From positions 1-37,217 of the IMG/VR virus record IMGVR_UViG_3300042453_000478: a stretch of DNA of 37,217 nt. One strand, given 5' to 3'. Below, one piece after another: positions 4,118 to 36,950 of the stretch. Position 1 is the first letter of the stretch; each line of letters opens with the position of its first letter. A model generated the notes under the pieces. That model saw only the letters and a list, made by a program, of their open reading frames with translations, was not told the origin of the DNA and made no database searches. Source of the stretch: a virus. The translations under genes and the position numbers were made by a program.

Positions 4118-4803
4118 TCCCCATCTGCATTGCGACTGTGCATGGCAAGGGTCTGAGCGTGCTGCTGGAGAGCATCCGGCAGTACGCACCAGAGCATCCT
4201 GTCTACCTGCGCGGTCCCGAGTCGGTCATCGAGAAATTTGACGCGCATCTCAAGATCTTTGGCCAGCCAAGCAATTTTGGCGATGACTACAACCAGGTCA
4301 TCAATGCTGCGCTGCAAGACTACGACCAGGTGATCGTGGCCAATGATGACATCGTGCTGACGCCTGACAGCATCAAGGTGCTGCTCGAGGATGTGGCCAT
4401 CATCAACACCATGCACAGCGTGCGTGCTGGCTGGGTGGCGTCACGGTCTGACGCTGCGCGGCCAGGTCAGAACGTGCGGATCACCGACCAGCCCGAGAGG
4501 CTGCACTTTTACAAGTTCCCATCCGAGGCCCACATCAAGATGGCCGAGGAGGTCAGCCCGATCCTGGGCTGGATCAACAAGGAAGCGTTTGGCGAGGGGT
4601 TTCCTCCGCTGAACTGGTACTCCGATGATGTCCATTGCCTTGACCTGCGCAAGCGCGGTTACAGCCACTTTGTGAGTGCCAGCTATGTGCACCACATCGG
4701 CAGCCACACCATCGGCTTTGACGCCAAGAAACTGCACGACCAGGCGCTGCCATGGTTGCTAACCCACAGACCTGAATATGCCAAAGCCTGGTTTGACGCT
4801 TAA
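4114..4803 (+). CDS. Glycosyltransferase, GT-A fold (GT2-like), 229 aa
   Basis: The N-terminus (MIPICIATVHG, strand-turn, then a helix) and the acidic motif VANDDIVL at about 75-82 fit a GT-A nucleotide-sugar binding core, with NDD (77-79) in the place of the DxD metal site. A second acidic/His region, NWYSDDVHCLDLRKRGY (167-183) and YVHHIGSHT (191-199), matches the acceptor/catalytic side of these enzymes. It would transfer a sugar to an unknown acceptor. It sits in the head module with ATGA coupling upstream and a 26-bp overlap with the methyltransferase downstream, so the two probably act together. Virion protein or surface-sugar modification are both possible. Confidence 0.78.
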   Translation: MIPICIATVHGKGLSVLLESIRQYAPEHPVYLRGPESVIEKFDAHLKIFGQPSNFGDDYNQVINAALQDYDQVIVANDDIVLTPDSIKVLLEDVAIINTMHSVRAGWVASRSDAARPGQNVRITDQPERLHFYKFPSEAHIKMAEEVSPILGWINKEAFGEGFPPLNWYSDDVHCLDLRKRGYSHFVSASYVHHIGSHTIGFDAKKLHDQALPWLLTHRPEYAKAWFDA

Positions 4804-33253: not shown

Positions 33254-35416
33254 GTGTCGATTTTACCAGAGCACACGCCAAGTGCGTTTGAGCAGTCCCA
33301 AGCCGTGGCCATGAAATTGGGCAACGTCTACCCAGCCGCCAACTTCTGCACATTCAGCGTGCAGAACGGCAAAAAGATCCCCCGCAAGCGCGATGGCAGC
33401 CAAGGCGTGGCACGTGACACGCCACCCGATGCCCTGTTCACCACCGAAGACGTCTGGGCCATGGAGGCCATGCCCCATGGCGACTATCTCGGGCTTGTCC
33501 TTCAGAAGGCCGCAGCCATCCCCGGCAAGGGCCACCTGGTGGTGCTGGACGTTGATCTGAAACACAGCCAGACCACCACCAACATCGCCATCCAGAAGAT
33601 GGCCCGGTGGGTCAAGGCCAACAGCGCATTGACCGAGATCAGTGTCTCAGGCAAGGGCCGCCATATCTTCCTGATCGCCAACCAGGCCGAGAACATCCTG
33701 CCCAAGTACAAGCTGGCCGCCGGCCAAGAGGTCGAAGTCTTTGGCCTCGACAACAGCGCAGGCAAGTCGGTGCTGCTGTCCGGATCTCAACTCAGCGGCG
33801 AGGTGATCGAGGTCCAAGACCTGCATGCGCTGCTCACTGAGTGGGGGATCATCGAGCAGCACCAACTGAACCAGCCCAAAGCCTCAGAACCCATCGACTT
33901 CTCACCACTGGAGCGCAAAGCCTCACCAGCCATCCAGCCCCAAGCCCCTGATGACATCAACAAGGCCGCCAGCGCCATGATGTTCATCAGCCCCGATGCG
34001 GAGTATCAACAGTGGATTGAAATCGGCCAAGCCTTGCACACCGCCTTTGGCAACCAAGGCCATGCCCTGTGGAGCCAGTGGTCAGCCTCGGGCAGCAAGT
34101 ACAAGGGCCAGCAAGACATCGACACGCACTGGAAAAGTTTCCACCAAGGCAAGGGCATTGGCCTCGGCACCCTGTTTCACGCAGCCAAACAAAACGGCTG
34201 GGAACCACCGACAAAGGCGTCTGAACGTAAATCGGCAGTGGAAGATTTCCAAAGTCTATTGAGTCCAGTACCAGTTGCAACAGGCTCACAGGATGAGCCT
34301 GCACCAGAAGCGCCACAGGGCTGGCCAGAACTCAGCCTCGACATCACCAGCCTCAAACCCATCGACTACATGATCCAAGGCTTTTGGGCGCACAGCTTCT
34401 TTGTGCTTGCTGGCCAGCCCGGTGTCGGCAAGACCACGGCAATGATAAGTGCCTGCATGGTGATGGCAGGGTTTCAGATCTCTGACACCACCATCAAGGC
34501 CAAGAACCACCGCAAGACCATCTTTGTCACCGAAGACAGCGACCAGATCACTCGCACCCTGTTCGCCTACGCCAAGCATTTCCACATCAAACCAACCGAT
34601 CTGCTCAACTGGTTTGTGGTCATTGATGCCAAACGCTCAGACGTCAAGGATCTTTTGACCTTGGCCCACAACGTCATACGCCACACGGTCAACGGCATCC
34701 GGCCACACCTGGTGTTGGACACGGCCAACAGCACCATGGCAATCGACAACGAGAACGACAACTCAGAGGTCGGCAGCTATCTGGCGGCCCTGAAGCAGAC
34801 CATCTACGTCCAACTGCACACGCCCATCTCCATCCTGACCCACACCAACAAGACCATATCAAGACAAGACTCAGACGCCATGGCCCGTGGTGCATCAGCC
34901 TTCACTGGTGACGCAACCCTGACCGGCATCCTGTTCATGGACCCAGATGGCACTCGATACATGAAGCTGACCAAAACCCGGTACGAGCCAGATTTCAGGG
35001 AAATCAGATTCGACACCCAGCTATTCCCAGAAATCGTCATCGACCAGCATGGCGAACCACAGACCATGCTGTGCCGCATCGCCATCCCTTACCCGTCAGC
35101 CGAATCCGAGCGCAAACAAGCCCAAGCTGACAAGCAAGAGGACAAGCGCCAGCAACAAATAACCGATGCCGCTGATGCCGCCTGCAACTTCATCCAGAGC
35201 CTGCTCAACACCCATGGCAAGGTGATCATCCGCAAAGGCCCAGGCCGCCCGAACGTGCCATCAGATCTTCAAGACGCCTACAAGCTGGAGTGGTCTGAGG
35301 TGTACCAGGCAGTGCCGCAGGCCGATCAGTCCTACGCCAGGAAGGCTGTTGGGGTGGCCATCTTTCATCGGTTTGGGGTGAGTCAGGACCAGTCGGGATG
35401 GGTGCAGTTGGTCTAA
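33254..35416 (+). CDS. Primase-helicase (prim-pol, PriCT-2, RepA-like ATPase), 720 aa
   Basis: GTG at 33254 with AGGAG at 33243-33247 is the start. The N-terminal prim-pol region has LVVLDVDLK (95-103; Asp99, Asp101) and ISVSGKGRHIFL (129-140), the D-x-D and (S)GKG-[RH] pattern of bifunctional primase/polymerase domains. PriCT-2 spans about 236-316 (DAEYQQWIEIGQALHTAFG, LWSQWSASGSKYKG). The RecA-like ATPase has FVLAGQPGVGKTTAM (383-397) and later LVLDTANSTM as Walker B. It would prime and unwind. The gene ends in the first iteron. Confidence 0.88.
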   Translation: MSILPEHTPSAFEQSQAVAMKLGNVYPAANFCTFSVQNGKKIPRKRDGSQGVARDTPPDALFTTEDVWAMEAMPHGDYLGLVLQKAAAIPGKGHLVVLDVDLKHSQTTTNIAIQKMARWVKANSALTEISVSGKGRHIFLIANQAENILPKYKLAAGQEVEVFGLDNSAGKSVLLSGSQLSGEVIEVQDLHALLTEWGIIEQHQLNQPKASEPIDFSPLERKASPAIQPQAPDDINKAASAMMFISPDAEYQQWIEIGQALHTAFGNQGHALWSQWSASGSKYKGQQDIDTHWKSFHQGKGIGLGTLFHAAKQNGWEPPTKASERKSAVEDFQSLLSPVPVATGSQDEPAPEAPQGWPELSLDITSLKPIDYMIQGFWAHSFFVLAGQPGVGKTTAMISACMVMAGFQISDTTIKAKNHRKTIFVTEDSDQITRTLFAYAKHFHIKPTDLLNWFVVIDAKRSDVKDLLTLAHNVIRHTVNGIRPHLVLDTANSTMAIDNENDNSEVGSYLAALKQTIYVQLHTPISILTHTNKTISRQDSDAMARGASAFTGDATLTGILFMDPDGTRYMKLTKTRYEPDFREIRFDTQLFPEIVIDQHGEPQTMLCRIAIPYPSAESERKQAQADKQEDKRQQQITDAADAACNFIQSLLNTHGKVIIRKGPGRPNVPSDLQDAYKLEWSEVYQAVPQADQSYARKAVGVAIFHRFGVSQDQSGWVQLV

Positions 35417-35466
35417 TCCGGTAATCCGGTAGTAATCCGGTAGAAAGGCGGTATACCGGATTAGAC
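35411..35466. repeat. Iteron cluster 1, TAATCCGGTA
   Basis: Three direct copies of TAATCCGGTA (35414-35423, 35422-35431, 35433-35442) and one inverted copy (35454-35463). The outer 13 bases form a perfect inverted repeat (35411-35423 with 35454-35466). It begins on the stop codon of the primase-helicase gene. The pattern is like replication-protein or operator iterons. Confidence 0.85.
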
Positions 35467-35486
35467 AATGGCTGGTTTTGGGGATT

Positions 35487-35510
35487 AAGTGGGGGCAGTT
35501 TGCCCCACTT
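35487..35510. repeat. Hairpin between the iteron clusters
   Basis: AAGTGGGG (35487-35494) and CCCCACTT (35503-35510) form an 8-bp stem around an 8-base loop. The last bases run into a perfect DnaA box (35509-35517). No T tract follows, so it is probably not a terminator. Confidence 0.6.
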
Positions 35511-35517
35511 ATCCACA
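35509..35517 (+). promoter_or_regulatory. DnaA box between the iterons
   Basis: A perfect TTATCCACA consensus lies between the two iteron clusters. Two further perfect copies are at 35650-35658 and 35661-35669, inside the start of the next gene. With the iterons they suggest recruitment of host DnaA. Confidence 0.7.
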
Positions 35518-35548
35518 AGCCAGTCTCGGAAGAAATCAGGGTAGTGGG

Positions 35549-35594
35549 TCTAATCCGGTAAGCCGGTAAATTCCTTTGGGGTTTACCGGATTAG
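35549..35594. repeat. Iteron cluster 2
   Basis: TAATCCGGTA at 35551-35560, a degenerate copy directly after, and an inverted copy at 35584-35593. The outer 12 bases (35550-35561 and 35583-35594) form a perfect inverted repeat around a 21-base interior. It repeats the architecture of cluster 1 at smaller size. Confidence 0.82.
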
Positions 35595-35634
35595 GAATAC
35601 TTCAAAGGTTTACAGTTTTAGATGGGGCAAAAAG

Positions 35635-35982
35635 ATGCTGAATTCAGAGTTATCCACAAGTTATCCACAGGCTGCGAATTGGGTCGATGATGACCGTGTT
35701 TTGTGCAAAAACTGCGCTAATGCGGTAAACGTGGATTTGAGGCAGTCCATGCCAGCCGAGCAGATGGAAAAGCACCGCAAGGTCAACGCCATTCCACTGC
35801 AATGGATGTTCGATGTGGCCAAGGTCAGGAACGGCTGGGCAACAGTCACATGGAAGGCTTGGCAGTGCCAGGCCACTGGCATGGCCACAATGCCGTTTGA
35901 TTTGAAGCACCGATGCCATTTGTATTTGGAGTCAAGTCCAGCGCCATCATCGGTAGAATCCGATGCATGGTGGCTCGACTGA
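35635..35982 (+). CDS. Small protein with four-Cys zinc-ribbon-like layout, 115 aa
   Basis: The start at ATG 35635 is the only reasonable one, although its first 12 codons overlap two DnaA boxes and the upstream GGGG is a weak ribosome-binding site. CKNC (24-27), Cys78 and Cys94 could form a zinc site (C-x2-C, 50 residues, C-x15-C). The middle has AIPLQWMFDVAKVRNGWATV and the end is acidic. No family recognised. It lies between the iterons and a VRR-NUC gene, so a DNA-linked role is possible. Confidence 0.65.
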   Translation: MLNSELSTSYPQAANWVDDDRVLCKNCANAVNVDLRQSMPAEQMEKHRKVNAIPLQWMFDVAKVRNGWATVTWKAWQCQATGMATMPFDLKHRCHLYLESSPAPSSVESDAWWLD

Positions 35983-36344
35983 GAAAAAGCATTGAACACA
36001 CTGAGCAGGTCAAGCTGGTGCAGCGGGTCAGGGCGTTTTATCCAGACATCATCATTGCGGCTGTGCCCAACGGAGGCGATAGAACGGCCTCAGAGCGTGT
36101 CAGGCTGCATCAGGAGGGTGTACTGGCAGGAATGCCTGATCTGTGCGTCCTGGAGGCTTGTGGCGGGTTTCACGGGCTGTTTGTGGAGATGAAGACCACA
36201 AAAGGGCAGCAGAGCAAAGAGCAGAAGGCTTTGCAGTTGCAGTTGAACGCAAAAGGTTATCTGTGCGCTGTCGCACGATCCGCCCAAGAGGGCTTTGAAA
36301 TCATCAAGGGGTATTTGAATGGCGAAAGCAAACACGCTGTCTGA
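35967..36344 (+). CDS. VRR-NUC nuclease, 125 aa
   Basis: The ATG at 35967 is favoured over 35913, which lies deeper in the previous gene. EHTEQVKLVQRVRA (10-23; Glu13), GMPDLCVL (55-62; Asp58), FVEMKTTKGQQSKEQ (72-86; Glu74, Lys76, Gln86) follow the VRR-NUC domain (PF08774). These single-domain phage nucleases are Holliday-junction or flap resolvases in several cases. It would clear replication or recombination intermediates before packaging. It overlaps both neighbours (16 and 26 bp). Confidence 0.92.
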   Translation: MVARLRKSIEHTEQVKLVQRVRAFYPDIIIAAVPNGGDRTASERVRLHQEGVLAGMPDLCVLEACGGFHGLFVEMKTTKGQQSKEQKALQLQLNAKGYLCAVARSAQEGFEIIKGYLNGESKHAV

Positions 36345-36819
36345 GTGGGCTGACAACATCGCTGAAAGGCAGATGGGCCTCAAAGAAAAGGCAGCCATCG
36401 CACGCAAGGAAGCCTCAGACGTCAACAAGAAGATCCACCAGTTCGGTGGCGAACTCGCCATCGTTGACAGGATCTCACAAGGAGAAACCGTCTTGGGGTT
36501 GGCTCGGACGCTGGGGATAAGTCACACCGCTTTTTACGATTGGGTGGACAGAGGAGGCGAGGCACGGGCTGCTGCTCTTGCGCGTGCACGCACGCGAGGT
36601 GGGCAGAGTTTAGCCGAGCAGACGCTCGAGATCGCCGACAGCGCCTCTCCACAAGAGGCGCAGGTGGCCAAGCTGCGGGTGGACACCAGGCGCTGGCTGG
36701 CCAGCAAGATGGCGCCCGATGAATACGGCGACAAGCAGCAGCCGTTGGTCAACATCGACCTGGGCAGCATGGCGCTCGATGCACTGCGCAAACGCAGCAT
36801 TACGCATACCGAAGACTGA
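36319..36819 (+). CDS. terS: Terminase small subunit, 166 aa
   Basis: DNA recognition subunit of the packaging motor. After a charged N-terminal helix, residues 47-77 are a helix-turn-helix (AIVDRISQGETVLGLARTLG, ISHTAFYDWV). The C-terminal KLRVDTRRWLASKMAPDEYG (119-138) is the recurrent motif of Sf6-like/phage terminase small subunits. AAGGGG at 36307-36312 is the ribosome-binding site. It is far from terL in the window but about 2.1 kb upstream if the ends join. The region just after it holds likely origin and packaging signals. Confidence 0.88.
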   Translation: MAKANTLSEWADNIAERQMGLKEKAAIARKEASDVNKKIHQFGGELAIVDRISQGETVLGLARTLGISHTAFYDWVDRGGEARAAALARARTRGGQSLAEQTLEIADSASPQEAQVAKLRVDTRRWLASKMAPDEYGDKQQPLVNIDLGSMALDALRKRSITHTED

Positions 36820-36861: not shown

Positions 36862-36950
36862 TTATCCACAGATTTAGGAATACGTTAGGTATAGCTTTTA
36901 GGTTATCCACAGGAATCTGTGGATAAGTGTGGACAAACCCCTGTGGACAG
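36862..36950. promoter_or_regulatory. DnaA-box cluster, likely replication origin
   Basis: Perfect DnaA boxes are at 36862-36870, 36903-36911 and, inverted, 36918-36926. One-mismatch boxes follow at 36928-36936 and 36942-36950. The second and third form a 10-bp perfect inverted repeat (36903-36926, loop 4). No gene of 60 codons lies between 36820 and 37144. A GC hairpin and an A/T tract follow, the order seen in many origins. Confidence 0.7.

Follow-up and report, generated by a model that had tools for sequence, protein, structure and literature searches.

The window analysed here, the complete IMG/VR virus record IMGVR_UViG_3300042453_000478 (37,217 bp), carries between positions 35411 and 35727 two clusters and one single copy of a ten-letter repeat (iteron), beginning at the 3' end of a gene for a 720-residue primase-helicase. 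We read this region as the replication origin of the phage. Binding of the iterons would fall to the C-terminal ~106 residues of the primase-helicase, and delivery of helicase and primase as well as steps involving DnaA and a hairpin would follow; the probability of this reading is put at about 92%. Comparison with related contigs (sets of 22 close and 80 wider relatives) supports both the location of the origin and the pairing of this protein domain with the iterons.

Exact copies of TAATCCGGTA are present six times in the window, four in direct (35414, 35422, 35433, 35551) and two in inverted orientation (35454, 35584), and no other exact copy exists in the 37,217-bp record. Two plus-strand sites deviate by one letter, TAAGCCGGTA at 35559 and TAATGCGGTA at 35718, the latter lying within the downstream open reading frame (ORF). 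In total eight sites with at most one mismatch were observed, compared with 0.23 expected in the whole record (0 of 100 shuffles), and all eight are confined to 315 bp, which makes them clustered repeats of one short sequence at a single locus. The clusters are 83 bp apart, and each contains a perfect inverted repeat, with arms of 13 bp in the first (35411-35423/35454-35466) and of 12 bp in the second (35550-35561/35583-35594). Some relatives carry an intact iteron at the position of the degenerate fourth direct site, AAAGGCGGTA (35444-35453). A preliminary description of this DNA had listed the six exact copies, the degenerate one, the inverted arms and the spacing, all of which we recovered at the same positions; the site at 35718 is added here.

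To locate the replication start, the minimum of the detrended cumulative GC skew was determined for 12 complete or near-complete genomes, which were treated as circles. In all 12 this minimum, an indirect marker, precedes the primase stop codon by 15-375 bp, at the margin of the iterons. The skew at third codon positions flips here from -0.26 in the primase to +0.18 and +0.20 in the next two genes. Because the window's genes to either side of the iterons share one strand, the flip is not explained by transcription direction. An A+T-rich stretch and DnaA boxes adjoin the iterons of the window genome, as expected of an iteron origin. Furthermore, the plan of cluster, hairpin and cluster is common to about 80 related contigs, always at the same location. 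The preliminary description had suggested a phage origin, and had made this dependent on a change of skew and on clustered copies in related genomes; both were found, and they support its suggestion.

In the relatives the iterons occupy fixed offsets from the primase stop codon (direct at -3, 5, 16 and 27, inverted at 38; direct at 134 and 142, inverted at 168), and an extra iteron is often located at about 301, within the coding part of the gene that follows. Their letters vary together between genomes, which defines six types: TAATCCGGTA; TAATGCGGTA; TAAA(C/G)CGGTA (TAAACCGGTA/TAAAGCGGTA); TAATNCGGAA; GTCGACCGGAC or GTCGGAGGGAC; and GTCGNNGATAC. Inside one genome the copies agree in the type-defining letters, positions 5-6 being looser. 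Even the iteron within the coding sequence, which is missing in about one fifth of the genomes, follows the genome type at its fourth letter. TAAT is found in 37 of the 38 T-type genomes having the site, and TAAA or TAAG in 27 of 27 TAAA-type genomes (TAAT in none), the change altering the encoded Cys-rich protein (N to K). Judged from the sequences, this pattern is a covariation at the DNA level. A search for iteron pairs beyond the phage family returned 95 stretches, 73 of them new. The primase lies directly upstream in 57 of the new ones, the other 16 are chance pairs or contig ends, and the search thus revealed no satellite using a borrowed origin.

Which protein reads the iterons was addressed with trees of 81 loci, on which the minimum number of changes between the six iteron types was counted; protein trees agree, and a few contigs present twice in the set create no changes. 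The tree of primase codons 615-666 requires five changes, which is the theoretical minimum, and that of codons 667-720 six. For the helicase part (codons 330-614) 10-12 changes are needed, for the N-terminal codons 1-300 22-27, for the body of the Cys-rich ORF 19 and for the region just beyond it 21. With shuffled type labels the 81-locus trees give 37-38 changes, and the range over all tree sets is 27-40. Five other genes were compared with the C-terminus on the same genomes. There the small terminase (TerS, 69 genomes) requires 19 changes, VRR-NUC 21, DUF2800 21, SNF2 23 and SSB 18, compared with five for the C-terminus.

Natural exchanges point in the same direction. As far as about 280-300 nt short of the primase stop codon, the DNA of the relatives L009 and L010 mostly agrees at 93-99% of positions, apart from a local drop to about 75% near -1400. 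The identity is 58% over the final 280 nt of the primase and 37-54% over the origin, and from +320 onwards, in the Cys-rich gene, it returns to 95-100%. In L010 and also in L017 the C-terminal domain and the iterons have been swapped together, and the Cys-rich ORFs of L009 and L010 are 97-100% identical despite differing iterons. L018 represents the opposite swap: its N-terminal half is foreign (25-40% identity), and C-terminus and iterons match the window. Within the primase gene of this contig (6001-8163), a distant version (25-58% identity) takes the place of the first ~300 residues and the remainder is more than 85% identical, so the gene itself is, by its sequence, mosaic.

Because of the change counts and the L009/L010 swap, comparison supports the primase-helicase as the initiator, acting through its C-terminal domain. 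The preliminary description had named two candidates, the primase-helicase and the Cys-rich protein; the former is retained (five changes), and the latter is ruled out by the trees (19-21 changes) and by the swap.

The primase-helicase matches PriCT_2 (E 4.5e-19) and AAA_25 (E 2.6e-14) of Pfam and the DNA primase group of PHROG. The AlphaFold2 model of its C-terminal domain (pLDDT 82.5, pTM 0.65) runs from a long helix through a strand, an RKGPGRP loop and a helix-turn-helix-like pair to a closing strand. The GRP of the loop is invariant in all TAA-type genomes and is NCP or NAP in the GTCG types, which suggests that the GRP loop touches the TAA end, possibly in the minor groove and AT-hook-like.

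Some observations weigh against our reading. The C-terminal domain has no fold or sequence match in the PDB, even at E 1, and none of 64 members has a significant Pfam match, RepA_N included; it is therefore not a recognised DNA-binding fold, and membership in the winged-helix family is likewise without PDB or Pfam support. The C-terminal domains of L010 and L017 are nearly identical, but their iterons differ somewhat. Finally, DnaA cannot be essential to the whole family, because the type D origins of L010 and L017 lack DnaA boxes. These origins, just downstream of the primase, have a different perfect hairpin, GGATATGCACACATATGTGTGCATTCC.

Between the clusters lies a hairpin whose 9-bp arms occupy 35486-35494 and 35503-35511; its 3' arm is overlapped by the DnaA box TTATCCACA. 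The preliminary description had correctly placed a hairpin and a perfect DnaA box here, but had given the arms as 8 bp and the two as separate elements. Among 25 distinct hairpin sequences two-sided changes occur in 5 of 16 pairs, a score reached in none of 500 shuffles, and shifting the hairpin partner abolishes the covariation. In one relative the DnaA box is altered to TTGTCCACA together with a matching change of the opposite base. With a DnaA box in its stem, the hairpin resembles the A-site of the ABC primosome. The two exact boxes at 35650 and 35661 and a further group at 36862-36936 are additions to the preliminary description; most TAA-type relatives have at least one exact box at the equivalent of the former pair.

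Table 1. Positions of the putative origin elements and associated genes in the window
Feature	Position	Strand	Remarks
Proposed initiator gene, 720-aa primase-helicase	33254..35416	+	AEP-type primase N-terminus, PriCT_2, RecA-like/RepA-like helicase, proposed C-terminal recognition domain
Proposed iteron-recognition domain	35096..35413	+	Codons 615-720 (last ~106 residues); tree changes, L010/L017 swap, AlphaFold2 pLDDT 82.5
Iteron cluster 1	35411..35466	.	Direct 35414, 35422, 35433, degenerate 35444; inverted 35454-35463; positions kept in relatives
Hairpin with DnaA box TTATCCACA (35509-35517), A-site-like element	35486..35517	+	Covariation; single-stranded DNA fold z = -5.3
Iteron cluster 2	35548..35594	.	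Direct 35551, 35559 (TAAGCCGGTA); inverted 35584-35593
Candidate unwinding element	35589..35648	.	65% A+T; top 0.5% of the genome's 60-bp windows; presumed function
Cys-rich ORF, 115 aa	35635..35982	+	Hosts DnaA boxes and single iteron; not the recognition protein
Two DnaA boxes, 11 bp apart	35650..35669	+	Exact; 35650-35658, 35661-35669; at start of Cys-rich ORF
Single iteron, third position (TAATGCGGTA)	35718..35727	+	Within Cys-rich ORF coding sequence
Second DnaA-box group	36862..36936	.	Three exact boxes and one near-match; perfect hairpin TTATCCACAGGAATCTGTGGATAA

From these elements we infer the binding, the order of steps and the roles of DnaA and the hairpin. The C-terminal ~106 residues would bind, on double-stranded DNA, the iterons of the two clusters as well as the lone copy within the next gene, and the bound protein would bring its own helicase and primase parts to the A+T-rich stretch adjoining cluster 2. 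Host DnaA, binding the neighbouring boxes, would aid the opening of this stretch. Once single-stranded, the DnaA-box hairpin might let host DnaB enter in the manner of an A-site or provide a site for priming. Because no polymerase gene was identified in the phage genome, extension would be carried out by host DNA polymerase III.

Cluster 2 lies about 40 bp upstream of the start codon of the Cys-rich ORF, and inverted repeats are typical of operators. The clusters could thus be an operator, bound by the C-terminal domain or by another regulator, which controls downstream transcription and is no origin at all. We consider this very unlikely, since it leaves unexplained the skew minimum in 12 of 12 genomes, the DnaA-box hairpin and the coupling to a primase-helicase instead of a regulator; autoregulation on top of the origin function is possible. 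Sites of the pac/cos type often lie near the small terminase gene, which here is found 0.7 kb downstream (36319-36819). A packaging site bound by the small terminase is nevertheless rejected by the TerS tree, with 19 changes against five for the primase C-terminus, and has almost no probability left. It is also conceivable that iterons and C-terminal domain travel together merely as adjacent DNA and that another protein is the real binder. However, the Cys-rich body is about as near (from ~+320) and still requires 19-21 changes, so physical linkage is insufficient as an explanation. Moreover, the helicase part, at a distance of 350-1100 bp, requires merely 10-12, and the only other genes compared (TerS, VRR-NUC, DUF2800, SNF2 and SSB) all require at least 18. 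We regard this explanation as highly improbable.

The clusters could instead act as single-stranded stem-loops which are read by shape and not by sequence, a mode of recognition suggested for pRN1 and BIP-1. As single-stranded DNA the region has a strong fold (z = -8.5), and these replicons have been described as encoding a primase-polymerase whose gene is followed on its 3' side by a stem-loop (PMC4234260). However, in several types the direct and inverted copies do not pair, for example TAATGCGGTA with inverted TAATCCGGTA or TAAAGCGGTA with inverted TAAACAGGTA, and in the TAAA type pairing ends at the iteron edge. This also weakens a cruciform reading of the clusters. Because pairing is not kept, the clusters look like protein sites on double-stranded DNA. 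Compensatory change is seen in the DnaA-box hairpin only, and the coupling to the protein domain depends on sequence, so that recognition by shape is very unlikely.

Iteron origins are already known, and the exchange of a domain together with its origin is known from the PLE satellites of Vibrio cholerae. In PLE the exchange of reading domain and origin was tested and linked to escape from Odn, the origin-cutting nuclease of ICP1 (PMC8263062). As in PLE, the putative DNA-binding domain and the origin have here been swapped together among close relatives (L009/L010/L017, L018). However, the PLE domain (RepA_N) is N-terminal in a RepA without primase or helicase, whereas in the phage the domain is C-terminal on a primase-helicase. 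The PLE iterons are three semi-palindromes of ~30 bp, in contrast to ten-letter sites in two clusters. Family searches, the only ones made for this purpose, found no homology of the phage domain to RepA_N.

In its logic the phage system appears nearest to P4 alpha and RSF1010, as an iteron origin with a fused initiator. Like the phage origin, that of P4 has two groups of sites; the helicase of P4 alpha belongs to superfamily 3 (SF3). P4 alpha has a Toprim primase and a C-terminal winged helix, whereas the phage protein combines an AEP-type primase and PriCT_2 with a RecA-like helicase and ends in a helix-turn-helix-like model (pLDDT 82.5) unmatched in the PDB. Since no Toprim match was found in the primase-helicase, but PriCT_2 and primase PHROGs instead, and since the C-terminal fold is unmatched, the protein does not belong to the P4 alpha family. 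P4 alpha unites priming, unwinding and C-terminal origin binding in one polypeptide (PMC4234260), as the phage protein would. RSF1010 oriV likewise has iterons, an element-supplied primase and hexameric helicase, and ssi hairpins as priming sites, but RepA, RepB' and RepC are separate and a DnaA box is not noted (PMC4234260); here these functions are fused. The pRN1/BIP-1 primase-polymerase replicons also have their origin directly 3' of the primase gene, and the BIP-1 protein contains PriCT_2. They differ by an SF3 helicase, a large stem-loop and the lack of iterons, and for pRN1 specific binding could not be demonstrated (PMC4234260). In lambdoid phages, too, a phage-encoded initiator acts on iterons adjoining an A+T-rich stretch (PMC7466680), but the iterons of lambda lie within the initiator gene and O is neither primase nor helicase. 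In the A-site, the stem of a hairpin contains a DnaA box, and DnaA loads DnaB there on single-stranded DNA (Masai 1990, as cited in PMC6127211). Here, by contrast, the hairpin lies between two iteron clusters of a phage encoding its own helicase and primase.

Novelty lies in the combination, and in how far it extends: six specificities, the fusion of an AEP-type primase with a RecA-like helicase, and an A-site-like hairpin between clusters. We tentatively speculate, though doubt prevails, that iterons and C-terminal domain form one cassette with at least six origin addresses, kept because nucleases, satellites or rival phages attack or exploit common origins, and that the A-site hairpin lets phage and host helicases each start one fork. 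For a widespread family of uncultured environmental phages, the probable origin is now mapped and its proposed recognition domain named, and origin specificity is seen to be swapped in a second, independent case besides that of the PLE satellites. The ~80 natural variants with six specificities offer a set for learning how a domain without solved relative reads DNA. The system also offers a natural phage origin with a DnaA-box hairpin between iteron clusters despite the phage's own helicase and primase.

Among phage records only MW202879 is related at a useful level of similarity (52.7% across 99% of the primase); its version of the gene is annotated repA. Megablast of the replication region against phage records gave no match, and literature searches found no paper on MW202879 or on this origin. 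A search of a genome collection found a single full-length relative with the same origin (CAINTF010000009.1). It lies in a metagenome bin of Acidimicrobium, where this phage contig was most likely placed in error. The structural genes of the window are podovirus-like, with an SU10-type portal. The replication genes are ordered Enc34-type SSB, SNF2-like helicase, DUF2800/PD-(D/E)XK exonuclease and primase-helicase, followed by the iterons, the Cys-rich ORF, a VRR-NUC nuclease and the small terminase. The contig ends (1-214 and 37004-37217) match ungapped over 214 bp with 92% identity, which is consistent with a circular or circularly permuted genome; the overlap, being imperfect, might stem from the joint assembly of two variants of a circularly permuted genome. 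Contig L187, a viral sequence of 161 kb that lacks this primase, has several GGTTTACC/GGTAAACC repeats in both orientations around position 4207, possibly an unrelated repeat locus. The second DnaA-box group of the window, located after the small terminase gene and followed by a C-run, is kept in several origin types including D.
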